Source of the DNA: Nitrospira sp.
GTDB taxonomy: Bacteria > Nitrospirota > Nitrospiria > Nitrospirales > Nitrospiraceae
Length of the DNA: 64,000 bases
Reading direction: 5' to 3'
NCBI GenBank assembly: GCA_005116835.1
Contig: SWDM01000023.1
Coordinates: forward strand, 68,870 to 132,869
Position numbers and translations under genes: made by a program. The notes beneath the pieces were generated by a model. The model was not told the origin of the DNA. It did not search any database and was given only the letters and a program-made list of their open reading frames with translations. Positions 21,754-40,718 of the stretch are shown piece after piece (the stretch's first letter is position 1; the number at the start of each line of letters is the position of its first letter).

Positions 21754-24411
21754 TCAGGAACCTTTTCTCAATCCCAGTGAAGCAGGTCTCTCTTGCCGGA
21801 AGTACTTCCGCACGAGCGTCTCGACTGAGGCGAAATGCCGGTCGGGGAGATTTTTGAATCGCCGTTTGCAATCGAGGAGGGCTTCGTTGGCTGTGGCGAA
21901 GGGTTGGATTACGGACAAGAGATGGTCGTGATAATCCATGAGCTTCAGCTCAACCGTTCTCAGATGGCTGGGATCGCCGGCGATGGCTAGCGCGGCTTTC
22001 CCCTGATCGCCATCGGCCTCGACCAGCGCCTGGAAACAGAGGCCCTTCAATCGCTGAGTCACAGTGCTGCGGTCCCACCGTAACATCTTGGCCGCTGACT
22101 GCATGTCGAAATTATGCTGCCGTAGACAATTCAATACTGCGGCATCGCTGGCAGGATCCGGAAGGATCTGCGTGTGCTTGGCTCGGCCAGAGGGCGTGGG
22201 TGATGTGCTGCCGAGGCGTAATGATTCTTTCGTGAGTAGAGGCCCGTCGTTGAGGGCGATCGCCTGTTCCAGGCAATGCCTGAACTCCCGCACGTTCCCT
22301 TTCCATTCCTGTTCGACGAGCGAACGAAGCGCCTCGTTCGAGAGTTTCGGCACAGGCTTGCCCATTTGACCTGCGATATCGGTGAGAAAGATGTCCGCGA
22401 GGATCGGCACGTCGCCGGTCCGTTCCCGTAATGGCGGAAGCCGGAACACGAGACCGGACAGACGGAAATAGAGATCTTCGCGAAACCAGCCTTCAGAAAC
22501 CCCGCGCTGCAGATCGCGATTCGTTGCTGCGACGATACGCACATCGACGGTGGTGGGGGTCGTTGCACCGACGCGATAGAAGGTTCTCTCTTGTAAGACT
22601 CGTAGCAGCTTACTTTGGTGGTCTAGGCGCAGGTCGCCGATTTCATCCAGAAAAATGGTCCCATGGTTGGCCAGTTCGAAGTATCCACGCCGATCGGTTG
22701 TGGCCCCGGTGAAGCTGCCTCTCGTATGGCCGAAGAGCTCACTTTCAAACAATTCAGGAGAAATTGCTGCCATATTGACTGCGATGAAGGTCTTGCCGGT
22801 ACGTGGACTGAGTCGGTGGACCGCCCTGGCAAATAGTTCTTTTCCTGTCCCCGGTTCGCCGAGCACGAGGACCGTCAGGGGTGATTTGGCTCCCCTCTTG
22901 AGATCCCGATAGAGGCGCAAGAGGGAAGAATCCTGGGTCATGATGTCGAGCTGTCGGCATTCGTCGCGGAGACGAACAAGTTCCCCATCGCTGAATACCC
23001 TGGGCTCGGTGGTGGCGGCCCGCAGACTATGTAACTGATGTTCGAGCCCTTCCAGTTTCCGACGTGCTTCATTTTCCTGCGCCTGAGCGTCGGCGAGTTG
23101 TGAGCGAAGGTCATCCGCGGATTTTGAAAGTTCCTCCTGTTGACCAGTCGAATGAGAAATGAAAGTCCGCGCAGCCGCGAGATCTTCTTGCAATGTTTCT
23201 GTCCTCGTCTCTCGCAAGATCAGAGCTTCACGTATCGCTGCAGCTTCCTGTTGCAGGCGGAGCATGTCCTGTTCTACGAGCATCAGCCTTTGATGGCCGG
23301 TCAGGTGGCTCCAAACAGTTGCGGCAACAAGCACCGACAGGGCGGTAGTCAGTGGCATGGCGAGGGGAAGGGCTAAGTCGGCCACCGCAAGCCCGAGAAA
23401 AACGAATACGCCATAAGTGGCAATAGCCTTCCCTGCCAGGAGCAGGCTGATCGTGCCTCGAAATCGAAGCAGGAGCCAGGCGACCAAGCATGCCAGGAGC
23501 AGCGTGATCAAGGTGCGGCTTGGTTGGTTGAGTTGGGAGAGCCGGTTGCCGGTCAGTAACATGTTCAGGACATGAAGATGGACTACCGAGCTGCTGACGG
23601 TCTGTCCTGTTGGTAAGAGCCAGTGCTCCCCACCGATGTGGTTTGGAAGAAATACGACGACCTTGTTCTTGAACCACTCGGTGAGCTGATCGCGATCGTG
23701 GTGTTCGATAGCGGTCCAGACGGATGAAATAGGAATGGTCGGCAAGGCATTGATCGTTCCATCGCCGACATAGTTGACCAAGAGGGAGTCCGTAGCGTCT
23801 TCGGAGAGCAACGGCGTTCTTGGTGAGGCCTGTTGTTGAAATAATTGATAGAGCGATATCCCGAAGGCTTGACTGGACTGCCTATCTCCGTTCGCCGTCA
23901 AAGGCACAGCACGTGTGACTCGATCGACATGGGTCGTGACCAGCAGATGGCTTGGGATCGTGGCATCCGAGGCAAGCGTGGTGTCAGGACTCTGCACGAG
24001 GACGATGGGTCCGGCTGTGGCCATGGCTTCTATCAGCAGGGCATCGCTTGTTGCCCCGCCGAGCTGGGCTGGGCTGGCATGGTCGAGGCGATAATCGAGA
24101 CCGATCACGAGAGATCCTGATTCATGCGCACTGGTCAGGAGCCGAGCGAGGACAGCCCGATCCCATGGCCCAGCGCCGAATTCTTTCTCGCTTGCCGGAT
24201 CCCGCGTGACTATGAGCAGGGATGGGCTTATCGGAATAGCAGTGCGATTGGTCAGCCAGAGATCGTACGCGGCCCAGTCCAGACCCGTGAATGTGGTGGG
24301 GGCAGCGGCCCATAAAACGAAGGCGAGGGCAGTGGCGAACAGCCCCATGGCGCAGGCTTGAAGCCAGGTGGAACCAAGGAACTGTCGCCACAGGCGGGAA
24401 ACGCTAAACAT
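21754..24411 (-). CDS. CHASE2-domain sensor fused to a sigma-54 activator
   Basis: The protein is 885 aa. An N-terminal membrane segment (about 14-36) leads into an extracytoplasmic CHASE2 sensor (about 40-295). Three membrane segments (about 298-366) and a coiled coil (about 375-465) follow. The AAA+ sigma-54-interaction domain (about 490-740) has Walker A GEPGTGKE (518-525). The sigma-54-contact loop is GSFTGA (565-570) where GAFTGA is standard. The C-terminus has a short Fis-like helix-turn-helix (AAKMLRWDRSTVTQRLKGL) and an added helical domain. It is a one-component membrane regulator, encoded 9 bp after a TPR protein on the same strand. The signal is unknown. Confidence 0.87.
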   Translation of the reverse strand: MFSVSRLWRQFLGSTWLQACAMGLFATALAFVLWAAAPTTFTGLDWAAYDLWLTNRTAIPISPSLLIVTRDPASEKEFGAGPWDRAVLARLLTSAHESGSLVIGLDYRLDHASPAQLGGATSDALLIEAMATAGPIVLVQSPDTTLASDATIPSHLLVTTHVDRVTRAVPLTANGDRQSSQAFGISLYQLFQQQASPRTPLLSEDATDSLLVNYVGDGTINALPTIPISSVWTAIEHHDRDQLTEWFKNKVVVFLPNHIGGEHWLLPTGQTVSSSVVHLHVLNMLLTGNRLSQLNQPSRTLITLLLACLVAWLLLRFRGTISLLLAGKAIATYGVFVFLGLAVADLALPLAMPLTTALSVLVAATVWSHLTGHQRLMLVEQDMLRLQQEAAAIREALILRETRTETLQEDLAAARTFISHSTGQQEELSKSADDLRSQLADAQAQENEARRKLEGLEHQLHSLRAATTEPRVFSDGELVRLRDECRQLDIMTQDSSLLRLYRDLKRGAKSPLTVLVLGEPGTGKELFARAVHRLSPRTGKTFIAVNMAAISPELFESELFGHTRGSFTGATTDRRGYFELANHGTIFLDEIGDLRLDHQSKLLRVLQERTFYRVGATTPTTVDVRIVAATNRDLQRGVSEGWFREDLYFRLSGLVFRLPPLRERTGDVPILADIFLTDIAGQMGKPVPKLSNEALRSLVEQEWKGNVREFRHCLEQAIALNDGPLLTKESLRLGSTSPTPSGRAKHTQILPDPASDAAVLNCLRQHNFDMQSAAKMLRWDRSTVTQRLKGLCFQALVEADGDQGKAALAIAGDPSHLRTVELKLMDYHDHLLSVIQPFATANEALLDCKRRFKNLPDRHFASVETLVRKYFRQERPASLGLRKGS

Positions 24412-26210: not shown

Positions 26211-26308
26211 AGTCAGTCGGCCCTGTGACACTCCTTTGACCTTCGTGTGACCATGACCTCAGCATGCTTCGCATCTTCGGGCCGCAGCATAGCAGAAATC
26301 GAGACGTT

Positions 26309-26365
26309 CATCGAACGATGGCGCCGTCGCTTGCCTTGACACCTCGTTTCATCGAACGATATTCT
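26309..26365 (+). promoter_or_regulatory. Promoter of the HD gene with two CATCGAACGAT sites
   Basis: TTGACA at 26336-26341 is followed after 18 bp by TATTCT. Two copies of CATCGAACGAT (26309-26319 and 26350-26360) flank the -35 and overlap the -10. The core ATCG-AA-CGAT is an inverted repeat. A third copy lies near the start of the YheT-like gene (36785-36795). This suggests a shared regulator, which is not identified. Confidence 0.45.
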
Positions 26366-26410
26366 CCTTGGAGTTTATTCGTTATCTATTCACCTCATCC
26401 ATTCCAACTC

Positions 26411-27292
26411 ATGATGCGATCTGTCCACACATGTGCCCCGCTCCTGGTTTCCCCCGCGTTCCTGTCCCGGCTCATGCGTCTCTACGACTACCCACATCCT
26501 CTTTACCCTGGCAGGACTATTCGCGGGTACGATCGGCCCCATGCGGTGAGGACTGCTCGCATGTGCGCGGCTGTGGCAGCGACGTTGGGTCATGGATCTG
26601 AGCTGGTTCGCCAATATCAAATCGCCTGTTTTCTGCACGACTTAGGCCGTGCTGGACTCGATCGCCGGCTTTTTGGGAAGATTTGGTCTTGGGCTAAGGA
26701 ACGCGGGGTTCCAACCAGACCACGCGAGTGGAGAGCCATATATCCGGAGACGGTCTATGGGCGAGAAACCGAGGCCTTTCTTCAGCGCTACAGGAAGGAT
26801 TTGGAGGCCGACGGCATCGCGATGACCCCTTGGGCCAAGGAGCAAGTCGAAATGCGGTTGGGCTATTCGCGCCGGCTTGCCCGCCGTCTTCGTCTTGTTC
26901 GGCCAGCCATCAGGCAGATGGGGGTAACCTGGGCTCCTTGGATGCAGCAGGTCATGCTCTATTATTACTATCCGGAGAAGCTGGCGTCGGCTAAGCCATG
27001 GGTCAAGCAATTGGCAGAGATTCTTGTGGCCTGCGAGCAATTTGAAGCCTACAGCAATCAGCGCCGTGGACGGGATTATTATGTGAGGAAAAAGGAAACC
27101 CTGGTTGATGCCTTTGCCTATTTGGAGAAATTGCAGCAGGAGGGTATTTTGAGTGGCGCGGTAATGGGGGCCTTGCGTCGATTGACGGCCCAAGGCGAGT
27201 TCGATTCTATCATCGAGAAGGCCCGTGGCCGCGCGTTGACGAGAGGAGAGCGACAATCGCTCCGAGCCATGGAGACGAAGAATGGCGGTTAA
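26411..27292 (+). CDS. HD-domain phosphohydrolase-like protein
   Basis: The conserved core has YDRPHAVRTARMCAA and, later, QIACFLHDLGRAGLDRRLFG, the H...HD metal-binding pattern of HD phosphohydrolases. LAEILVACEQFEAY is the late helix, with Glu where HD-GYP proteins usually have Asp. The protein is 293 aa from the ATG at 26411. The frame extends upstream to ATG 26264, but the promoter-like sequence at 26336-26365 argues for a later start. It overlaps the next gene by 11 bp, so they are co-transcribed. The substrate is unknown. Confidence 0.75.
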   Translation: MMRSVHTCAPLLVSPAFLSRLMRLYDYPHPLYPGRTIRGYDRPHAVRTARMCAAVAATLGHGSELVRQYQIACFLHDLGRAGLDRRLFGKIWSWAKERGVPTRPREWRAIYPETVYGRETEAFLQRYRKDLEADGIAMTPWAKEQVEMRLGYSRRLARRLRLVRPAIRQMGVTWAPWMQQVMLYYYYPEKLASAKPWVKQLAEILVACEQFEAYSNQRRGRDYYVRKKETLVDAFAYLEKLQQEGILSGAVMGALRRLTAQGEFDSIIEKARGRALTRGERQSLRAMETKNGG

Positions 27293-28883: not shown

Positions 28884-30641
28884 ATGAGTGATCGCCGACC
28901 AGCTCAGCCATCAGATCCCACACCCAATGGAAAGACGGAGGATGGCCCTGATCCATCTGCACGGATGGAATCCGATCCGCTTGCGCTGATAGAGCAATGT
29001 CTCGCTTTATTTCCCGACGGCGATCCCAGGCAGAAGATCCTCTATAAGCTGCGCCATACCGTGACCCTTGGGCAAGCAGCGCAGCACCAACGGGAAGCTG
29101 AATTCAAAAAGGTCGCGGACGTGATTGCGAAGCTCACGGCCCCGGCCAATCGAGTCGGTACCTTGCTTGAGGTGCCAGGTGAAGGTCTTGCGCGGATTCT
29201 GGTGGGGGGCGCTGAGTACTATGCCTCGGTTGACCCACGGGTTCAGGCTGCTGAGCTGAAGATCGGCGCTCAGATTCTGGTCAACGAAGCCTATGCGGTG
29301 ATTAAGGTATTGGAATATGACCGGAATGGGCCGGTGTTGAAAGTGGCAGAGGCTCTGGCAGACGGGCGACTTCGTTTTGAGCAGGAGATGGGGCGGCAGG
29401 TCTTGATCCTCCAACGGTCGAGCGATCTGATCGGCGTGGATATTAAGCCGGGCGATGAGATACGTATCGAACCCAGCCTCCATGTGGCGATCGAGAAACT
29501 GGAGGATCGGAAAGCCAAGTCTCACCTGCTCGATGAGGTGCCCACCGTTACATGGGAGCAGATTGGGGGGCAGACCGAGGCTATCGCCGCGATTCAGAAA
29601 GCCATCGAGTATCCCCTGCTCCATGCAGCGACCTTTCAGCGCTTTAAATTCACCCAGCCAAAGGGTTTCCTGCTCTACGGACCTCCCGGTTGCGGAAAGA
29701 CTTTGATCGGGCAGGCAGCGGCCGCCAGCCTCTCAAAGCTTGTGGGGGAGTCAAGTCAGGCTGCTTCAGGTGCGAAGGAGGGTAAGCCGCCGGTGACTCG
29801 CGGGGCGTTCCTTCACATCAAGGGGCCTGAGATTCTCAATATGTGGTTGGGCGAATCGGAGCGGATGGTCCGGGATCTCTTCGCCCAGGCCCGTGCCCGC
29901 CGGAAAGAAGGGGCCTTACCGTTCATTTTCATCGACGAGGCGGAGTCGGTCCTCGGTACGAGACGGGCCTCTCGGTCATTCAACATTTCCAGCACCCTGG
30001 TTCCGATGTTCTGTTCCGAAATGGACGGGATCGAGTCCTTGCACGATGTGGTCATTATTCTGGCTTCGAACAGGCCGGACCTGATCGACCCGGCTGTGCT
30101 GCGGCCCGGGCGGATCGATCGTAAGATCAAGGTAGGCCGTCCCAATCGCGAATCGGCGGCAGCGATTTTGAACGTGTATCTCACGGACGATCTGCCGTTG
30201 GACCGGCAATGGATCGACCAACACGGTGGGGACCGGAAGAAGGCCTGTGCCGACCTTGTCGATCATGCGCTCGCCACGATTTTCTCGCGGATCGATGAGA
30301 ATCGGCTTCTGTCGATCAGGCTCCGAAACGGACAGAACAAAGTACTCTATCGAAGCGATCTGATCAGCGGAGCGATCTTGGCTTCGATCGTTCAACGAGC
30401 GAAAGAACAGGCGATCGAACGTATGATTGCGGCCGGTGGGGCTGAACAGGGCGGCATGATCTTGGATGATCTAGTGAACTCCGTTCATGCAGAATTCAGG
30501 GAGGGCGAGATGCTTCCTCCCGACGACGCAGCAGAAGAATGGCTCAAGCTCCTCGATCACCATCCGGAGCAGATCGTCGGTATCTCGTCGTTCCGGAGAG
30601 GGCGACAGTCTGAAGAGAGATTGATCAACCAAATTATCTAG
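28884..30641 (+). CDS. arc: Proteasome-associated AAA ATPase ARC/Mpa
   Basis: The 585-aa protein is the unfoldase that threads tagged proteins into the 20S core. It has a short N-terminal helical stretch (about 65-90), two OB-fold domains (about 90-205), then an AAA module with Walker A GPPGCGKT (266-273), Walker B FIFIDE (347-352) and RPGRIDR arginine fingers. The pore loop is NMWLGE (319-324), Trp where Mpa has Tyr. The C-terminus ends LINQII, with no hydrophobic-Tyr-X motif, which in actinobacterial ARC docks on the 20S ring. Docking must differ or be weak. It is followed by dop, ubact, prcB, prcA and pafA. The ATG follows TGGAGGA. Confidence 0.93.
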   Translation: MSDRRPAQPSDPTPNGKTEDGPDPSARMESDPLALIEQCLALFPDGDPRQKILYKLRHTVTLGQAAQHQREAEFKKVADVIAKLTAPANRVGTLLEVPGEGLARILVGGAEYYASVDPRVQAAELKIGAQILVNEAYAVIKVLEYDRNGPVLKVAEALADGRLRFEQEMGRQVLILQRSSDLIGVDIKPGDEIRIEPSLHVAIEKLEDRKAKSHLLDEVPTVTWEQIGGQTEAIAAIQKAIEYPLLHAATFQRFKFTQPKGFLLYGPPGCGKTLIGQAAAASLSKLVGESSQAASGAKEGKPPVTRGAFLHIKGPEILNMWLGESERMVRDLFAQARARRKEGALPFIFIDEAESVLGTRRASRSFNISSTLVPMFCSEMDGIESLHDVVIILASNRPDLIDPAVLRPGRIDRKIKVGRPNRESAAAILNVYLTDDLPLDRQWIDQHGGDRKKACADLVDHALATIFSRIDENRLLSIRLRNGQNKVLYRSDLISGAILASIVQRAKEQAIERMIAAGGAEQGGMILDDLVNSVHAEFREGEMLPPDDAAEEWLKLLDHHPEQIVGISSFRRGRQSEERLINQII

Positions 30642-30642
30642 G

Positions 30643-30715
30643 AGTCTAAAGTCTGAACGTTAAAAAGTCGTCAAGTCTGGAATCGGCACTTTCTGACTTG
30701 AAGACTTTCGACATG
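30643..30715. repeat. Heptamer repeat arrays forming a hairpin (arc-dop gap)
   Basis: Consecutive 7-bp units (AGTCTAA, AGTCTGA, ACGTTAA, AAAGTCG, TCAAGTC) face a second array (ACTTTCT, GACTTGA, AGACTTT). AGTCGTCAAGTC (30666-30677) and GACTTGAAGACT (30695-30706) pair at 11 of 12 positions. The structure fills the gap between arc and dop. Confidence 0.6.
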
Positions 30716-30729
30716 ATGACAGTTTAACG

Positions 30730-32256
30730 ATGCGACTCTTTGGGATTGAAACAGAGTACGGTATTACCAGGGAAGACCAGGAGCTGGTCGATCCGGTCGT
30801 GGAGTCGATGGAGTTGGTGCGGGCTCACCTGACTGCCTCGTTCGAACGGCGATGGGACTATGGCGGTGAAGATCCGCATGAGGATGCGCGGGGGTTTCGG
30901 GTTTCCGGCCTACAGCAGGATAAGGAAGAAGACGAGTTTGCCAAGGTCGATGCCCATCGGCCATTTTCGTTTCACGAGATGAAGAGCGATCTCGTGCTTC
31001 CGAACGGCGCGCGATTTTATAACGACCATACGCACCCTGAATATTCCACGCCTGAATGTCGGACGCTCTTGGATATCCTTGCCCATGACCGTGCCGGGGA
31101 GCGTATTGTCCAGCGGGCGGCGGAACGGCGTAACCATACGCTCGGCGGACCGCATGTGCAGCTGTATAAAAATAACACGGATTTCCACGGGCACAGTTAC
31201 GGTTGCCACGATAACTATCTTGTCTCTCGCTCAATTCCATTCTCATCGCTGACCGCGGGATTGCTGCCGTTCCTTGTCAGCCGGCAGATCCTTGCGGGAG
31301 CCGGCAAGGTAGGGGTAGAGGGGCAAGAGAGCGGGTTCGTGCCTGGCCAGTATCAGCTCTCTCAGCGAGCGGACTTTATGGAGACGGATTTGAGCGTCGA
31401 CACGATGCACAACCGGCCGATTCTGAATACGAGAGACGAGCCCCATGCGGTGCGGGAGAAATATCGGAGGCTCCACCTCATTATCGGCGATGCCAATATG
31501 TGCGAGTACAGCACAGCGCTGAAGGTGGGGACGACGCAGCTGGCGTTGGAGTTGATTGCGCGAGGCGTTGCGCCGGCTCTTGAATTGGAACAGCCTGTCA
31601 TTGCCGTGAAACAGCTCTCTCGCGATCAGAATCTCAAGGCTGCGGTTCGTCGGAAAGAAGGCAGCACGATTACTGGACTCGACATCCAAGAGCTATACTA
31701 CCTCGCGGCTGAGAAGCATTTGGCCGGTACCGATGCAGAGACCGACTGGATCCTTCACGAATGGGGTTCCACGCTGCGACAGCTTACCGGCGACCGGAGA
31801 CAACTTGTCGGGAAGCTCGATTGGGTCACCAAGCTCTGGCTGATGGAAACCTTTATGCAGGAAGAGAAGCTTGGCTGGGACGATCCCTGGCTGGCGAGTT
31901 TGGATTTGGAGTACCATAATCTGAATCCGGATCGCGGGCTCTTTCTGGGGATCGAAGCAGAGGGAAAGGCCTGGCGAATGACATCGGAGCGGGATGTCGA
32001 AGCGGCATTGGTGGCCGGCCCAGCCGATACCAGAGGGGGTATTCGCGGTCTCTGCATCAGACGGTTTCCGGATCAGATCAAGTCGATGCAGTGGGAACGT
32101 ATTCAGTTCAGCGGGGGGCTGCTCCCGCGTACTTTGGAGATGGGCGATCTCTTCGAGCCAGAGGCAGTGCGAGCTTGTGCGAAGATGATCGAGAGTGCGG
32201 CATCCCCTATGGATGCGCTGAACGAATGGAATAGAAACAAGGAGTCCCGATCATGA
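30730..32256 (+). CDS. dop: Dop, UBact/Pup deamidase-depupylase
   Basis: The 508-aa protein belongs to the glutamine-synthetase-like carboxylate-amine ligase fold: GIETEYG at the N-terminus binds Mg-ATP, and NDHTHPEYSTPEC holds the catalytic Asp (D99). An acidic insertion (about 41-80) matches the Dop-specific loop absent from PafA. Dop deamidates the C-terminal Gln of the modifier and removes it from substrates. The product of the overlapping downstream gene ends in Gln, so this step is needed. The dop stop overlaps the ubact start (ATGA). Confidence 0.92.
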   Translation: MRLFGIETEYGITREDQELVDPVVESMELVRAHLTASFERRWDYGGEDPHEDARGFRVSGLQQDKEEDEFAKVDAHRPFSFHEMKSDLVLPNGARFYNDHTHPEYSTPECRTLLDILAHDRAGERIVQRAAERRNHTLGGPHVQLYKNNTDFHGHSYGCHDNYLVSRSIPFSSLTAGLLPFLVSRQILAGAGKVGVEGQESGFVPGQYQLSQRADFMETDLSVDTMHNRPILNTRDEPHAVREKYRRLHLIIGDANMCEYSTALKVGTTQLALELIARGVAPALELEQPVIAVKQLSRDQNLKAAVRRKEGSTITGLDIQELYYLAAEKHLAGTDAETDWILHEWGSTLRQLTGDRRQLVGKLDWVTKLWLMETFMQEEKLGWDDPWLASLDLEYHNLNPDRGLFLGIEAEGKAWRMTSERDVEAALVAGPADTRGGIRGLCIRRFPDQIKSMQWERIQFSGGLLPRTLEMGDLFEPEAVRACAKMIESAASPMDALNEWNRNKESRS

Positions 32257-32447
32257 ACTACAGCTCAATGCCGGAACGTCGTGAAGGGCCAGGCAATCCG
32301 ATGCCGAAGGCGCCGAGTCCGTCCGATGAGGGTGGCGGGCCAAAACGGCCGGAGACCGGGTCTCCCGACAAAGACAATCTACTCAAGCGCATGCGCAAGG
32401 TCGATCCGAAACAGGCTGAGCGGTATCGGCAACGAACAGGACAGTAA
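32253..32447 (+). CDS. ubact: UBact, Pup-like protein modifier
   Basis: This 64-aa, hydrophilic, Pro/Gly/Lys/Arg-rich protein is predicted to be disordered, with a short helical C-terminal part (DNLLKRMRKVDPKQAERY). It ends in RQRTGQ. The terminal Gly-Gln is the Pup-family signature; Gln becomes Glu by Dop and is joined to substrate lysines by PafA. The length and the KVDPKQAERYRQRTG ending are those of UBact of Nitrospirota. The ATG at 32253 is preceded by AAGGAG at 8 nt. A second in-frame ATG is at 32268. Confidence 0.93.
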   Translation: MNYSSMPERREGPGNPMPKAPSPSDEGGGPKRPETGSPDKDNLLKRMRKVDPKQAERYRQRTGQ

Positions 32448-32455
32448 GGGAAGAA

Positions 32456-32548
32456 GTGCTGAGTTCTGAGTGCTGAGTACTCAGGATGGACCAGGATTCA
32501 GGAGTCAGACGTCGAGCCACTACTCAGCACTCAGCACTTTTCACTCAG
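32456..32548. repeat. Paired heptamer arrays forming a hairpin (ubact-prcB gap)
   Basis: GTGCTGA, GTTCTGA, GTGCTGA, GTACTCA (32456-32483) and TACTCAG, CACTCAG, CACTTTT, CACTCAG (32521-32548) are four-unit arrays in opposite orientation. GAGTGCTGAGTA (32468-32479) and TACTCAGCACTC (32521-32532) pair perfectly across a 41-nt loop. The left arm also contains the palindrome CTGAGTACTCAG. Confidence 0.7.
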
Positions 32549-32563
32549 AACTAAGGGGATGAG

Positions 32564-33337
32564 ATGGGGATGCAAGGCGATTTCTATCAGTTACTCAAAG
32601 AACAGGGCTATGCACTGGCAACTTCAGGCCAGGTAGGGACTGGTCATGCGCTCACGAACGCCACCACGATTCTCGCCTTCAAGTATCGCGATGGGGTGTT
32701 GGTGGCGGGAGATCGCCGCGCGACCGCCGGCAACATGGTGATGTACGATCGCACGGATAAGGTATTGGAGATCGATCGGCACAGTGTGATGGCGATCGCC
32801 GGGGTTCCGGCGACGGCTTATGAAATGGTGCGGATCCTGGAACATTCCTTCAAATACTACCGGCGGACGCAGCTGCAGGAGTTGAGCTTCGACGGCAAGC
32901 TACGCGCTGTCTCCAAGCTCTTGAAGGAGAATGTGCCGGCGGCCCTGGCTGGGACTGGGGCGGTGGTCCCTGTGTTTGCCGGCTACGATCTGGAGCAGGG
33001 CTCAGCCAAGATATACTTCTACGATATACTCGGAGCGGAGTTTGAGGCTGTCGAGTATGCCGTATCCGGGTCCGGTTCCCCCACGATCCGTGGGATCTTG
33101 CACTATTTGAATACCTGGGGCGAACAGCCGCTCAATGCATTGCCGGAAGAACAGGCGATGGTGCAGGCGTTACGATTGCTCACGAGCGCGGCGGAGTTCG
33201 ATTCGGCGACCGGCGGGGTCAATCGAGAAGCGAGCTTGTACCCTGTGATCAAGTTGATTACAGGGGTCGGGATCCAGACGGTGCCGGATGCGACATTGAA
33301 ACCTCTTTATGAATCACAGGTGGTGCGCTATGTATGA
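32564..33337 (+). CDS. prcB: 20S proteasome beta subunit PrcB
   Basis: The 257-aa protein carries an N-terminal propeptide of 33 residues that should be cut off before T34 (NA/TTILAFKYRDGVLVAGDRRAT). The mature protein keeps the catalytic set: Thr1, the Asp of AGDRR (residue 17 in standard numbering) and the Lys of DKVLEI (33). The residue before the cleavage site is Ala instead of the common Gly. It is the proteolytic subunit and forms the inner rings of the 20S core with PrcA. It overlaps prcA by 8 bp. Confidence 0.94.
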   Translation: MGMQGDFYQLLKEQGYALATSGQVGTGHALTNATTILAFKYRDGVLVAGDRRATAGNMVMYDRTDKVLEIDRHSVMAIAGVPATAYEMVRILEHSFKYYRRTQLQELSFDGKLRAVSKLLKENVPAALAGTGAVVPVFAGYDLEQGSAKIYFYDILGAEFEAVEYAVSGSGSPTIRGILHYLNTWGEQPLNALPEEQAMVQALRLLTSAAEFDSATGGVNREASLYPVIKLITGVGIQTVPDATLKPLYESQVVRYV

Positions 33338-34160
33338 AGAACCCTATCGCTGGGTAGAAGCGGTCGGCAATCGGCGGCAGTATCTGGACGAACAGTTCAA
33401 GCAAGGGAGCCCGGTTGTTGCGCTGACCTATGAGGGAGGCATTCTCATCACTACGGTCAGTAAAGGGACTCCCAAGCTTTATGAGATCTATGACCGATTG
33501 GCATTGGGTGGGATGGGACATCCCACGGATTTGGAAAAGCTTCGCTTCAGTCTGCTAGAAATGGCTCATGTCGAAGGTTTCAACCGCTCACCGTCCGATG
33601 TGACGGGAGCGAGACTGATTAAGAACGGCATTGCTCCGGTCATCAAGCAAGCCTTCGAGGAAGTGTATAAGGCGCCGTTCATCGTGCGTATTTTGGTAGC
33701 CGAGTTAGGGCAGAAACCGGAGAAGGACGCGCTGTTGACGATTAATTACGACGGAACATTTGAGGAAGTCACAGGTCATGCGGTTCTCGCTGCTACCACG
33801 GCTATTCAAGCGAAGATGCTGACCTATCTCAAGGATCAGCAGCAGGCCACACTGACATTGGAACAGGCGTTGGATCTCACGCTGCGCGTTTGGGCGATCG
33901 GATCGTTAGCCCAGCAACAGGCTGAGGCAGATCAAGATGCTGAAGCCAAGCCGACGGCTAGTGGAGCAGGGTCAGTGGCTGCTGTCATCCCAAGCAGAGA
34001 CGCGTTGATCGAACATGTGCGAGGTCTTGCCGGTGAACGGACAATCGAATGCGCGATCCTCGAGCGCCAGGCTCCCGGCACGTCCAAGTATCGGCCACTC
34101 AAGCAGGCAGTGCTGTTACGTCTTCTGCCGGCGGCGCTTCAATCCGTCGTGGCGCATTGA
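33330..34160 (+). CDS. prcA: 20S proteasome alpha subunit PrcA
   Basis: Starting at ATG 33330, the protein is 276 aa and has the proteasome fold without a catalytic Thr: QGSPVVALTYEGGILITT, EIYDRLALGGMGHPTDLEKLR and ARLIKNGIAPVIKQAFEEV. The short N-terminal tail (MYEEPYRWVEA) would form the gate of the outer ring. The C-terminal extension (about 215-276), with an Ala/Glu-rich linker and a final helical segment, is somewhat longer than usual. It is co-transcribed with prcB and ends one base before the pafA start. Confidence 0.92.
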   Translation: MYEEPYRWVEAVGNRRQYLDEQFKQGSPVVALTYEGGILITTVSKGTPKLYEIYDRLALGGMGHPTDLEKLRFSLLEMAHVEGFNRSPSDVTGARLIKNGIAPVIKQAFEEVYKAPFIVRILVAELGQKPEKDALLTINYDGTFEEVTGHAVLAATTAIQAKMLTYLKDQQQATLTLEQALDLTLRVWAIGSLAQQQAEADQDAEAKPTASGAGSVAAVIPSRDALIEHVRGLAGERTIECAILERQAPGTSKYRPLKQAVLLRLLPAALQSVVAH

Positions 34161-34161
34161 G

Positions 34162-35646
34162 ATGTTGAACCGTATTTTCGGGCTTGAAACCGAATACGGA
34201 CTCTTGGTCAACCAAGAGCGCCCAGACCATTCCCCTACCTGGTTCGCCAACAAGATTCGCGACCATCTCTTTCATGTCCAGCGGCGAGGCGTCCTTGATC
34301 TGCACCACCGGGGACACGATGAACCGCCTGGCAATGGGGGATTTCTCACCAACGCCGGCCGCATGTACCTCGATATGGGGCATCTGGAATGGGCATCGCC
34401 GGAATGCGAGTCGCTCAGCGATGTGGTGGCCGCCGATCGCGCAGGGGATCAGTTACTGCAGGAGGCGATTCACGATCTTGGGCTGGCTGACACGGTATCG
34501 TTGATCAAGAACAACGTCGATCATGAGACCGACGCAACCTTTGGATCGCACGAGAACTATCTCGTGTCTCGGCGGTTTCCCTTTACCAGGCGCGGACTCG
34601 GACCCTTTGTGACCTTCCTTGTCACCAGACAGATCTTTACGGGAGCCGGGCGTATCGGCGCGGCGAGCCCTCAAGAGGGCTGGGTTCAGATGGACCGGCT
34701 CCTGATGCCGCGAGAAGTGAGCCATCGTTCTTCGCAGGAAGCACCGCTCCCGTTTCAGATCTCTCAGCGCGCCGACTACATCGTGAACGATTTCTTCGAA
34801 TGGGTGCAGCAGAATCGCGCGATCGTCAATACCAGAGATGAACCGCTGGCCGATCCGAATCAATTCCGACGCATTCACCTTCTCCTGGGCGATTCAAACA
34901 TGGCCGAAGTGGCGACGGCTTTGAAGTTGGGCACGACGGGGCTGGTTCTTCAGCTGATCGAGGAGGGGCATGCGCCGCTCGATCTTGATCTCCACGAACC
35001 GGTTGAAACCATGCAGGATTTGTCGCAGGATCAGAGCCGACAATGGGTCGTTAAGCTGCAATCGGGAAAGACGATCTCTGCGATCGATATTCAAGAAGCA
35101 TTTCTCGCGGCGGCGAGCGAACACTATCGTGGGCAAGACGATGAAACGGATTGGGTGCTCGATCAATGGGAGAAGGTCTTGCACGACCTACGCGGGGACT
35201 ATCAGACGCTGGTGGGGCGTGTCGATTGGGCTTCGAAGTTATGGCTGCTCGACACCTTCCGCGAGTCGGAACAGATGACATGGGACGATCCGGCCTTGAA
35301 AAGTCTGGATTTGGAATATCACAATCTTCATCAAGGTAAGGGGCTCTATTTTGGTTTGATGGAAGAAGGGCGGGTTCCACGCCTCATTACGGACAAGGCA
35401 ATTACCCTCGCGATGGACCATCCCCCACGCAATACCAGGGCCTTTGGTCGTGGCGAACTGGTTCGCCATTTGCTGGCTAGCGGACCTTCGAATGATTCAG
35501 TCGATCCCAGGCTGGAAGAACGGTTTTCTCCCTCGTATGTGATCAACTGGTCGATCTTCCAACTGCGCGGCCAGCCACCCTTTCCCATGCCGGATCCCTT
35601 CAAGACCTATGTGCAGGAAGTGCGAGCTCATCTTCAAACGGCGTGA
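34162..35646 (+). CDS. pafA: PafA, UBact/Pup ligase
   Basis: I start it at ATG 34162, giving 494 aa. The frame is open further upstream but overlaps prcA. The fold is the same as Dop: FGLETEYG at the N-terminus, then AGRMYLDMGHLEWASPEC with the catalytic Asp D71. It lacks the long acidic loop of Dop, so it is assigned as the ligase. PafA forms the isopeptide bond between the C-terminal Glu of the deamidated modifier and a substrate Lys. The other member, dop, lies upstream, so the locus has both activities. Confidence 0.9.
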   Translation: MLNRIFGLETEYGLLVNQERPDHSPTWFANKIRDHLFHVQRRGVLDLHHRGHDEPPGNGGFLTNAGRMYLDMGHLEWASPECESLSDVVAADRAGDQLLQEAIHDLGLADTVSLIKNNVDHETDATFGSHENYLVSRRFPFTRRGLGPFVTFLVTRQIFTGAGRIGAASPQEGWVQMDRLLMPREVSHRSSQEAPLPFQISQRADYIVNDFFEWVQQNRAIVNTRDEPLADPNQFRRIHLLLGDSNMAEVATALKLGTTGLVLQLIEEGHAPLDLDLHEPVETMQDLSQDQSRQWVVKLQSGKTISAIDIQEAFLAAASEHYRGQDDETDWVLDQWEKVLHDLRGDYQTLVGRVDWASKLWLLDTFRESEQMTWDDPALKSLDLEYHNLHQGKGLYFGLMEEGRVPRLITDKAITLAMDHPPRNTRAFGRGELVRHLLASGPSNDSVDPRLEERFSPSYVINWSIFQLRGQPPFPMPDPFKTYVQEVRAHLQTA

Positions 35647-37507: not shown

Positions 37508-37786
37508 TTACCCTTGGTAGGCCTGCCCCAGCGCGGCGGACTCACCTTTATTGGACATGAGTTGCCCGGTGGCGCTGACGGCCTGCATGGTGATGGCATA
37601 ATGCTTGGCCGCGTCGCAGACGATGACACAGAGTTCACAGCCTTTGCAGCGGTCGATGATCACTTCGGCCACCATTTTAGTCGAATTGAGATCAAGTGTG
37701 TTGGCCTCAGGGCAATACATGATGCAGAGTCGGCATCCCTTTTTGGCCACGCATTTTTCGTCGATCACTTGGGCTACATTATACAT
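37508..37786 (-). CDS. 2-oxoacid:ferredoxin oxidoreductase, delta (ferredoxin-type) subunit
   Basis: The 92-aa protein binds two [4Fe-4S] clusters: CVAKKGCRLCIMYCPE is the first and CKGCELCVIVCD the second. It passes electrons between the catalytic subunits and ferredoxin. It is the last gene of the five-subunit operon and is followed by a strong terminator. The C-terminal 25 residues after the second cluster are unlike common ferredoxins. PorD/ForD are names used for the equivalent subunit elsewhere. Confidence 0.88.
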   Translation of the reverse strand: MYNVAQVIDEKCVAKKGCRLCIMYCPEANTLDLNSTKMVAEVIIDRCKGCELCVIVCDAAKHYAITMQAVSATGQLMSNKGESAALGQAYQG

Positions 37787-37809
37787 GCGAGCTGGTTCCT
37801 TCTCTCTCG

Positions 37810-38517
37810 TTAAGCCGCAACGGCAGGATTACCGACTCGCAGCTCATACTGATTCTTTTCGGCCCACGCACTGGCGATGTCATAAGCCGCTTTTACGGTT
37901 GCCAGGTTTTTGGCCAGCAACATTTCTTTCTTGGCGAACTTCTTCTTGATCGCTTCGTCCAAGGAGGCAGTTCCACCGGATGCGACGAATTTCTTCCCGA
38001 ACCGTTCCTGTAAGGCGAGATCCAGGGATTCCATTGAGACGCACTTGGTGATACCCGAGACCGATCCGAGCATCGCCATATTCGTTGAAAGCTCGGTGCC
38101 GGCCACTTCGATCGCAAGTTCAGTTCCCGCGATATAAAATACCTTGACGTTCAAATCCCTGAGACGTTCAATGTCATCGGCTGACAGAAGCTCCTGGTCG
38201 GAGTTGATGACGACCAAGCCACCTTCTTTCACCCCTGAGTAGAAGGGCATGGTGTAGCTTTTCCCCATGGTGATGACCTGGGGGTGAAAAACTTGAATGA
38301 CATCGGGGAATACCAACTCGCCACGGTCATAGATCCGTTCGATGCCGATTCGGCAATAGCTCTCCGCCGGCGCCATGCGTTTTTCAGCGCCGAAGAAGGG
38401 ATTGGAGATCGAAAACTTGCCGTCGCGGTTGGCGGCCATGGCCAACACATGGGCGGCTGTGACGGCGCCCTGCCCACCTAATCCGGACATCCGGATGTTC
38501 AGTCTTTTCTTGATCAT
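37810..38517 (-). CDS. 2-oxoacid:ferredoxin oxidoreductase, gamma subunit
   Basis: The 235-aa protein shows the gamma-subunit signature near the N-terminus, IRMSGLGGQGAVTAAHVLAMAA, followed by ISNPFFGAEKRMAPAESYCRIG. The domain contacts CoA in related enzymes. The gene lies 23 bp before the delta subunit and 24 bp after the beta subunit. The C-terminal helix-rich part (about 165-220) is probably specific to this sub-family. The substrate (pyruvate or 2-oxoglutarate) cannot be fixed from this subunit. Confidence 0.88.
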   Translation of the reverse strand: MIKKRLNIRMSGLGGQGAVTAAHVLAMAANRDGKFSISNPFFGAEKRMAPAESYCRIGIERIYDRGELVFPDVIQVFHPQVITMGKSYTMPFYSGVKEGGLVVINSDQELLSADDIERLRDLNVKVFYIAGTELAIEVAGTELSTNMAMLGSVSGITKCVSMESLDLALQERFGKKFVASGGTASLDEAIKKKFAKKEMLLAKNLATVKAAYDIASAWAEKNQYELRVGNPAVAA

Positions 38518-38541
38518 GAGCGTCTCTCCTCCAGAATCGGA

Positions 38542-39447
38542 TTAGGCTCCCTGGGAAGCGAGCTGTTTTGCGGCGGCCTTCTTTTCCTTGTCCTTGGCGG
38601 CTATTTCTGCCAGGAGTTGCTTGGCCGGCTCGCTGACGTACTCTTTGTAGGCGAACCGCTCGGTCGGTTTTTCCGAATCCCGCATTTCCTGGAGCCCTTC
38701 CATGCTGTTCTTTCCAATTTCGAGAATGCATGGCGTATAGAGCTGGAGGTAAGTCGGACCGATCTCGCGCGCGATCATGACCGCATTTCGGACCACCTTC
38801 TCAACGAGGGACGGCTTGCTGACGGTGCATTGGACGACGTAATGACAGCCTGACTCGCGAGCGATTTCCGGCAGACGAACTTTGTCAAAGAGCTTTCCGA
38901 CTGGGGCCATCTTGGCGACGAACCCCTTCTGCATCAGACCGCTCTCCTGACCACCGGTATTGGCGTACAGTTCGTTATCGAAGCAAATCGTGGTGAACTT
39001 TTCCTGGCGGAACCAGGCTTGCAGCGTCATGTCGAGGCCGATATCTACGGTGGCGCCGTCGCCAGCTAGCACGACCACGTCTTTCGTCCGGCCTGGGAAG
39101 CGGACGCTCAAGGCGCGCTTCAAGCCGGAGGCGATGGCGTTCTGGTTACCAAAGAGGGAGTGAATGTTATGCACGGCTACCATGGGGAACACCAGGCTGG
39201 TACAGCCGGTGGAACCAACCATGACTGTGTCTTCGGGGTTAGGCAATGAGGCCAGGATGTAGCGGAAGGCCATGGACTCCGGGCAGCCGGCGCAGAGGGA
39301 GTGCTGCTCGATCAGCTCTTTGCTATTGCCGATATCCTTCCAGCCCCGGTCTTCCTTACCGTAGGTCGCGCTCTTGACCAGGTCTTGATAGTCGGACGGC
39401 ATGATGTCGTACAGGTCTTCAGAAATCTTGATACGTTCTTTGCTCAT
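38542..39447 (-). CDS. 2-oxoacid:ferredoxin oxidoreductase, beta (TPP-binding) subunit
   Basis: The 301-aa protein binds thiamine diphosphate: VVVLAGDGATVDIGLD holds the GDG start of the TPP motif and ends in the FDNELYANTGGQ segment. The SLCAGCPESMAFRY stretch near residue 50 carries cysteines that bind the [4Fe-4S] cluster near TPP. Together with the alpha subunit it decarboxylates a 2-oxoacid with CoA, or runs in reverse as a CO2-fixing carboxylase in the reductive TCA cycle. The tail is Lys/Ala-rich. Confidence 0.92.
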   Translation of the reverse strand: MSKERIKISEDLYDIMPSDYQDLVKSATYGKEDRGWKDIGNSKELIEQHSLCAGCPESMAFRYILASLPNPEDTVMVGSTGCTSLVFPMVAVHNIHSLFGNQNAIASGLKRALSVRFPGRTKDVVVLAGDGATVDIGLDMTLQAWFRQEKFTTICFDNELYANTGGQESGLMQKGFVAKMAPVGKLFDKVRLPEIARESGCHYVVQCTVSKPSLVEKVVRNAVMIAREIGPTYLQLYTPCILEIGKNSMEGLQEMRDSEKPTERFAYKEYVSEPAKQLLAEIAAKDKEKKAAAKQLASQGA

Positions 39448-39506
39448 ATTGGCCTCCTCGGTGGTACGTCTTGTTCAAATCGTTTTGTTCATGCTGCTAG
39501 ATGCGA

Positions 39507-40718
39507 TCAACTGCCGCGACCAGCCAACGACATGGTGCGCATGCCGAGCAGGGTCTTGATTTCTGAGACAATAATTTCCGGCGGCATCGTCATGCCTCCA
39601 CAGACACGTGGGCCGGAGTGCACACGCTCGCTGTTCGGGATGGTGGCTCTAATTTCTTTTGCCAGCCACCCGGTTACGTTGAATTCTGGAACGATAATAT
39701 GTTTGGCATTCTTTGTGGCTTCACGGATTTCTTCGCCTGGCCAAGGTCGCAGAACCTTGATTTTGACCAGACCGCAACGGATGCCTTCGTCCTCAAGGAG
39801 CCGGATGGCTTCGCGGCCCTGAGATACCGCTGTGCCAGAAGCGACGATGAGAACCTCGGCATCGGTATTTTCTGTTTCGATCAAGCCGTTCAGCCATTTG
39901 ATCGTGTGTTTACGTGATCGCTCCACTGCAGCCCAGACCTCTTGTTGCCATGAGGCGTGGGTGGCATAGCTGATGTAGTTGCTCTTCATGACGAAGGGGT
40001 CGCGCATCATTCGAACCGGGGGACATTCCATGTCCATACAGGGCACGGGAGAGCGGTAAGGGTCATAGGGAGGAAGACACATGTCGGCCGGGGTGAGATT
40101 GACGACGTCCTTGGTGTGCGTCACGAAAAATCCGTCGCAGCAGAGGGCTAAGGGAAGATGCACATCAGGCTCTTCCGACACCATGTAGCCCTTGAGGATC
40201 CAATCGAAGAAGTCCTGCGCGGTTTCCGCATGCCAGACGAGCATGCCGGTATTCAGGAGATAGGCGATTTCTAGTGTGTCAGGCTGGATCGACAACGGTG
40301 AGTTGATGCCGCGGCAGGTGACGATCATCTGAATCGGCAGCCGTGCGCCAGACCACATGGGGAAATTCTCCATCGCGCGCATGGTGCCGGGTCCTGCGGT
40401 CGTGGTAAACACACGAGCTCCGCCGAAGGCTGCGCCTGCGCATTGCGACATGACGGCAAATTCACTCTCACCGCGGAAGTAGTCGCCGATATAGCCCTCG
40501 GCAAAGAGCTCACCGATCAAGGCAGCCGCTTCGCTCTGCGGGGTAATCGGATAGGCGATCATCACGTCACAGCTGGCCCGCCGGAGCGCTTCCTTGATGA
40601 CCTCGCTGCCCGTGAAGAATGACGGCGTGCGTGGGGCATCGTTCATCATTGCCCAGGTGTCGGTAAAGGTCTGACCCTTTTTATTTTTTGTGCCGATGAC
40701 GGAGTGTGTGTCTGCCAT
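39507..40718 (-). CDS. 2-oxoacid:ferredoxin oxidoreductase, alpha subunit
   Basis: The 403-aa protein has the pyrimidine-binding domain of TPP enzymes: VIKEALRRASCDVMIAYPITPQSE at the N-terminus, then GGARVFTTTAGPGTM and the substrate-loop region RLPIQMIVTCRG. A C-terminal transketolase-like domain (EVLIVASGTAVSQGREAI) completes it. It contributes substrate and TPP binding with the beta subunit. The YPITPQSE block is the usual alpha signature. Nitrospira genomes carry both pyruvate and 2-oxoglutarate versions of this five-subunit type, so the substrate stays open. Confidence 0.92.
   Translation of the reverse strand: MADTHSVIGTKNKKGQTFTDTWAMMNDAPRTPSFFTGSEVIKEALRRASCDVMIAYPITPQSEAAALIGELFAEGYIGDYFRGESEFAVMSQCAGAAFGGARVFTTTAGPGTMRAMENFPMWSGARLPIQMIVTCRGINSPLSIQPDTLEIAYLLNTGMLVWHAETAQDFFDWILKGYMVSEEPDVHLPLALCCDGFFVTHTKDVVNLTPADMCLPPYDPYRSPVPCMDMECPPVRMMRDPFVMKSNYISYATHASWQQEVWAAVERSRKHTIKWLNGLIETENTDAEVLIVASGTAVSQGREAIRLLEDEGIRCGLVKIKVLRPWPGEEIREATKNAKHIIVPEFNVTGWLAKEIRATIPNSERVHSGPRVCGGMTMPPEIIVSEIKTLLGMRTMSLAGRGS

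Follow-up and report, generated by a model that had tools for sequence, protein, structure and literature searches.

A complete UBact-proteasome locus is encoded in the 64,000-nucleotide stretch of Nitrospira sp. DNA analysed here (the window, to which positions refer unless another contig is named). We consider it probable that this locus, as a representative of the UBact branch within the Pup-proteasome family, constitutes one of two complete tag-proteasome circuits per cell, a circuit that its sequence suggests is insulated from the Pup circuit. The locus is a complete member of an already catalogued kind and is ordinary for its lineage.

HMM searches confirmed the proposal, made from the sequence only, that six genes occur on one strand in the order ARC, Dop, UBact, PrcB, PrcA and PafA (28884-35646). 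ARC, two Pup-ligase-family enzymes, PrcB and PrcA are thus adjacent, the arrangement that characterizes a UBact-proteasome. The genes, and the parts of them that are important below, are:

28884..30641, forward strand: ARC, UBact-type proteasomal AAA ATPase (TIGR03689, 434 bits; Pfam OB_N, OB_C and AAA)
30627..30638, forward strand: codons of the ARC tail NQII, which replaces the G[QH]Y[LF] of Pup-type ATPases
30730..32256, forward strand: Dop, predicted UBact deamidase/depupylase with Dop-loop (TIGR03688, 456 bits; best PDB matches; DARGF)
31654..31968, forward strand: Dop residues 309-413, a segment that tracks the system and not the enzyme class (ten acidified columns; segment tree; per-column likelihoods)
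32253..32447, forward strand: UBact tag, 64 aa, C-terminus RTGQ (NF033388, 81 bits; PF20513, 76 bits)
32564..33337, forward strand: PrcB, catalytic 20S subunit, with a propeptide and then T1 in NA/TTILAF (TIGR03690, 166 bits; T1, D17, K33)
33330..34160, forward strand: PrcA, 20S alpha subunit with the docking-pocket lysine (TIGR03691, 78 bits; motif TPKLYEIYDR)
34162..35646, forward strand: enzyme in the PafA position, probable UBact ligase, without Dop-loop (TIGR03686, 328 bits; Dop model, 321 bits; AlphaFold match 4bjr)
35059..35373, forward strand: PafA residues 300-404, the counterpart of Dop 309-413, sharing its system-specific residues (columns, tree, likelihoods)

The tag scores above the curated cut-offs of both of its models (35 bits for NF033388 and 27.8 bits for PF20513). 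ARC, PrcB, PrcA, Dop and PafA have good scores that are nevertheless under NCBI's curated NCBIfam cut-offs, and these are thus divergent family members. The tight spacing described earlier holds for three of the junctions: the Dop stop is overlapped by the UBact ATG (32253/32256), the end of PrcB is overlapped by the start of PrcA (33330/33337), and PafA starts 2 bases past the PrcA stop (34162/34160). It does not hold for ARC-Dop (88 bp) or UBact-PrcB (116 bp). The starts of PrcA and PafA were corrected, most plausibly to 33330 and 34162, respectively. None of the six genes contains an internal stop, and PrcB retains T1, D17 and K33, including the N-terminal threonine nucleophile of 20S proteasomes. 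Between the window's genome (G000) and a congener (G195), dN/dS is 0.04-0.09 for the five genes of the UBact locus that were tested and 0.01-0.05 for the Pup set. Strong purifying selection thus acts on the core genes of the window's UBact set, all of which are intact.

Searches of the window's genome found four genes of the Pup-ligase family and two for PrcB. A second, canonical Pup-type cassette with the order ARC-Dop-PrcB-PrcA-PafA was identified on contig C18 (L031). There is no pup between the dop and prcB of this cassette; instead, pup occurs on a third contig (C10 43493-43684, L091) and its product ends in QKGGE. The genome therefore contains a whole Pup-proteasome set, and the window locus is a second system rather than the sole one. 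The sequence-only reading was right as to the completeness of the locus but overlooked the Pup cassette elsewhere. Other Nitrospirota families have pup between dop and prcB, which indicates that it moved out of its cassette in the lineage of the window (Nitrospiraceae). In one single-contig genome (G145), the distance from pup to prcB is ~51 kb.

UBact is present in 42/46 Nitrospiraceae and in 69 of the 198 Nitrospirota genomes sampled. A tally by hand of the UBact and pup searches gives 62 genomes of the 198 with both tags, 28 with Pup only and 7 with UBact but without detected Pup. G019, a single contig estimated at 99% completeness, has UBact without detected Pup, one PrcB and two ligase-family genes; thus, a genuine UBact-only state exists. 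The earlier remark that proteasomes are rare outside Actinobacteria was overstated, as the locus is near-universal in this lineage (the 42/46 Nitrospiraceae) and Gram-negative proteasomes have been published (PMC5666114, PMC3511204). In a scan of public genomes, UBact-type ARCs were found in Verrucomicrobiota, Armatimonadota, Poribacteria, Nitrospinota, Gemmatimonadota and one Bipolaricaulota MAG. A Nitrospinaceae UBact cassette (L131 8380-11024) encodes two different prcB genes, which flank prcA and UBact on either side.

Several other candidates were considered. A possible second UBact in G139 (26 bits) was rejected, as this open frame looks unrelated and is not accompanied by proteasome genes. 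HslV is missing from 7/7 sampled genomes of the window's genus and present in most other Nitrospirota, and mutual exclusion of HslV and the proteasome in the phylum was rejected because many dual genomes encode HslV. The search for the Bpa/PafE activator returned no matches among 41 relatives, and its positive controls were likewise unmatched. One record of plasmid-borne Pup-type core genes was found, and it is actinobacterial.

Upstream of ARC, the linkage to HD, YjbQ and HtrA genes suggested earlier is supported as synteny (17/18 Nitrospiraceae loci read) but there is no sign of shared function. These genes precede ARC in 0/14 Nitrospirota loci read outside the Nitrospiraceae. As the order is confined to one family, we attribute it to descent and do not take it as evidence for a functional link. 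The gene described as encoding an HD protein (26264-27292) is itself conserved in this position, but its score of 15.1 bits falls short of the Pfam HD cut-off of 22. Also present on the minus strand are a large regulator whose AAA region resembles that of sigma-54 activators (21754-24411) and, adjoining the locus, subunits like those of 2-oxoacid:ferredoxin oxidoreductase (37508-40718), both judged by eye. Promoter-like and terminator-like sites scanned at the locus occur at a frequency near that of chance. The gap between UBact and prcB (32448-32563) is filled by an imperfect inverted repeat (ctgagtgctgag ... ctcagcactcagcac), and a sequence resembling it precedes the Pup-type cassette (near 13880 of L031).

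The two tags differ in their ends. The Gly-Gln terminus first noted for the window's tag was verified (RTGQ), and the tag lacks the canonical Pup end FVxNYVQKGG[EQ]; the Pup of this genome is the one encoded on C10. Net charge over the last 30 residues averages +4.2 for UBact (range +2 to +7, n = 42) and -7.6 for Pup (range -10 to -3, n = 69), with no overlap between them. The C-terminal end of UBact is almost unchanged from Nitrospirota to Armatimonadota, and only Y-x-Q-[KR]-x-G-[EQ] is common to the UBact and Pup ends. The suggestion that a full cycle is encoded stands in that all components are present, but deamidation is not a conserved step, given that 23/30 Nitrospirota UBacts already end in Glu.

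The ARC consists of a helix (48-85), two OB domains, an AAA domain, a C-terminal domain and the tail LINQII, and the best matches to its AlphaFold model are Mpa structures (7pxc/5kwa). The GQYL, or close variant, that is typical of Pup-type ATPases is absent from the window ARC, which ends in LINQII versus TGHYL in the ARC of C18. In the mycobacterial ATPase, C-terminal GQYL is required for opening of the 20S gate (PMC8142254). Two branched hydrophobic residues (II, VI, IV, VV or AI) form the tail in 49/56 UBact-type ARCs from several phyla; the remainder are six that end in IE, all from one family, and one that ends in KN (G131). G[QH]Y[LF] occurs in 0/56. All Nitrospirota Pup-type ARCs read from cassettes end in GHYL or GHYF, and the difference in tails between the systems is seen in 49/56 (UBact-type) against 77/83 loci. 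In the ARC tree, UBact-type and Pup-type proteins form two clades with no swapped members.

The first of the two ligase-family enzymes in the locus is, by its sequence, a Dop. It scores 456 bits with the Dop model versus 363 with the PafA model, its best PDB matches are Dop structures, and the Dop-loop reported earlier is confirmed by its motif (RWDYGGEDPHEDARGF). DARGF is found in UBact Dop as in Pup Dop, and in 0/31 UBact-type PafAs. The last gene is probably the UBact ligase, an assignment that we make by elimination and gene position. Its HMM scores are almost tied (328 bits for PafA and 321 for Dop), in phmmer searches Dop structures are matched better than PafA structures, and PafA-Pup (4bjr) is, by a narrow margin, the best match to its AlphaFold model. 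UBact-type PafA has an alpha-loop (window 34774-34824, residues 205-221) with a conserved motif of its own (e.g., FFEWVQ.NRAI); absent from this loop are the two threonines that aid ligase function in Pup ligases (PMC7947786). As to whether this region is helix or loop, AlphaFold assigns residues 162-228 a pLDDT below 50. In the tree of the family, UBact-type and Pup-type Dop and PafA form four separate clades with no swapped members; the best topology pairs the two UBact enzymes, and pairing Dop with Dop is not rejected (p 0.443).

The near-equal scores, the phmmer ranking, this topology and the distinct alpha-loop would all be consistent with a last gene that is not an orthologue of the Pup ligase, as in the case of a separate duplication in the UBact branch, a ligase/depupylase split that arose twice, or another activity. 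We regard this as quite unlikely, given that the last gene lacks a Dop-loop as Pup ligases do, that UBact Dop shares the Dop-loop motif of Pup Dop, and that cassette position and best fold match both point to PafA.

Dop and PafA share a region that follows the system to which they belong. Across 19 genomes, charge per 100 residues is -3.8/-3.9 for Dop/PafA of UBact loci and -1.6/-1.7 for those of Pup loci. In ten of 426 aligned columns, the two UBact enzymes are both acidified compared with the two Pup enzymes (expected, 1.5; Fisher 2e-7), and all ten are within Dop 321-411 (PafA numbering in this test counts 49 residues upstream of the adopted start). In a tree of the segment, which was defined after inspection of the columns, the enzymes cluster by system (support 100) and the Dop+Dop constraint is rejected (p 0.0006); outside the segment Dop groups with Dop, weakly. 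Because the segment was chosen post hoc, a test over all columns was run and actinobacterial sequences were added. Per-column likelihoods favor grouping by system most strongly at Dop 324-353 and 369-413, whereas at Dop 13-106 they favor grouping by enzyme, and the by-system columns are clustered over all columns (permutation p 0.013). The idea that Dop and PafA of one genome still undergo gene conversion was rejected, as identity is the same within and between genomes; thus, the likeness of the segments is old. We read the segment as a likely part of the tag-binding surface. The literature searched provided no lists of Pup-binding-groove residues by which to place it.

Pupylation is non-degradative in proteasome-less corynebacteria, and UBact conjugation could be mainly non-degradative in some or all of the bacteria considered here. 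One genome bears on this. In the interval between UBact and PafA of G131 (contig C37, L040 6189-6659), an ORF consists of approximately 52 residues from the start of PrcB fused in frame with approximately the last 110 of PrcA, so that most of both is gone, although this is a single genome and the fusion may be an assembly error. The cassette still encodes ARC, Dop, UBact and PafA; its ARC ends in KN, without a hydrophobic tail, and no further UBact-type core gene was found in the genome. The joint loss of core and hydrophobic tail agrees with a role of the tail in docking. Some UBact-type ARC loci in other phyla also have no core genes detected nearby, for which contig ends or divergence may be responsible. 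Nonetheless, a mainly non-degradative function seems very unlikely to us in view of the intact and strongly constrained core in the window and the retention of core genes by every other Nitrospirota UBact cassette that was read.

The cores also bear on possible exchange between the two sets. The PrcBs of both are catalytically intact by residues, and, wherever the motif search detected it, alpha subunits of the two systems alike keep the docking-pocket lysine, so ARCs could still be exchanged between sets. Mixed 20S cores or swapped ATPases might then serve both tags, and the second set would mainly provide capacity or separate regulation. Genomes with a single set are known both ways, and thus neither set requires the other. 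Such cross-talk is unlikely in our view, since identity between the two PrcBs of the window's genome is only 36% and ARC tails, tag charges and Dop/PafA segments are consistently different. In sequence, the two cassettes differ consistently at the points where mixing could occur.

We therefore return to the preferred reading of a UBact circuit that is probably insulated from the Pup circuit. By analogy with the Pup family, the Gln end of UBact would be deamidated by the Dop of its own locus, and the resulting Glu would be joined to lysines of target proteins by PafA of that locus. The tagged target would be recognized by the N-terminal helices of the cognate ARC, unfolded and handed to PrcAB encoded beside it; Dop would also take UBact off. 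Insulation would probably arise at two points. The opposite charges of the tags would be read by the segment that matches within each Dop/PafA pair, and docking on the 20S core would rely on a different C-terminal tail in each of the two ATPases. It is a tentative further proposal that the circuits are orthogonal within one cytoplasm, with opposite-charge tags, a co-evolved ligase/depupylase segment and different tails directing UBact-marked and Pup-marked proteins to different 20S cores.

Most work on Pup-type tagging concerns bacteria that have a single tag and a single proteasome, and Nitrospira may offer a natural two-circuit cell for it. The ARC tail, the tag charge and the ten enzyme positions predict which parts should be exchangeable and which should not. 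If correct, the proposal would reveal how two ubiquitin-like systems stay unmixed and could provide bacterial engineering with a degradation system that operates independently. Nitrospira are leading nitrite oxidisers, which gives ecological weight to their protein turnover.

The UBact-proteasome system was reportedly named by Lehmann and colleagues in 2017. The window locus shares with it the tag family (NF033388, PF20513), gene order, six components and Gly-Gln/Glu C-terminus, as well as occurrence in Nitrospirota, Armatimonadota and Verrucomicrobiota. No feature distinguishes the locus from other Nitrospira UBact loci, and the tail, charge and segment features belong to the whole UBact branch as sampled. 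A subcluster of their own has been described for the proteasome subunits found in Nitrospirae, Armatimonadetes and Verrucomicrobia (PMC5666114). Our literature search on UBact experiments and dual systems in Nitrospira returned passing mentions and one 2012 study (PMC3511204), and no earlier description of the tail, tag-charge or Dop/PafA-segment differences was found in the literature searched. Figure 2 of that study presents two complete cassettes, L1 and L2, in Leptospirillum ferrooxidans, the second with a tag that lacks GGE. As in the window's genome, these are two whole and very different cassettes in one Nitrospirota genome; unlike in L. ferrooxidans, pup is outside its cassette in the window's family. 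The legend to that figure does not name UBact or compare tails, charge or enzyme segments.

The actinobacterial Pup-proteasome (Mpa/ARC, Dop, Pup, PrcBA, PafA) has the same architecture, folds, cassette order, threonine protease core and Dop-loop as the UBact set. The two differ in the end of the tag, which is RYRQRTG[QE] in UBact and FVxNYVQKGG[EQ] in actinobacterial Pup, with the charge reversed, and in the ARC, where the UBact type has a tail without Tyr and the pore loop NMWLGES in place of NKYVGES. The N-terminus of PrcA and the alpha-loop of PafA are also different.
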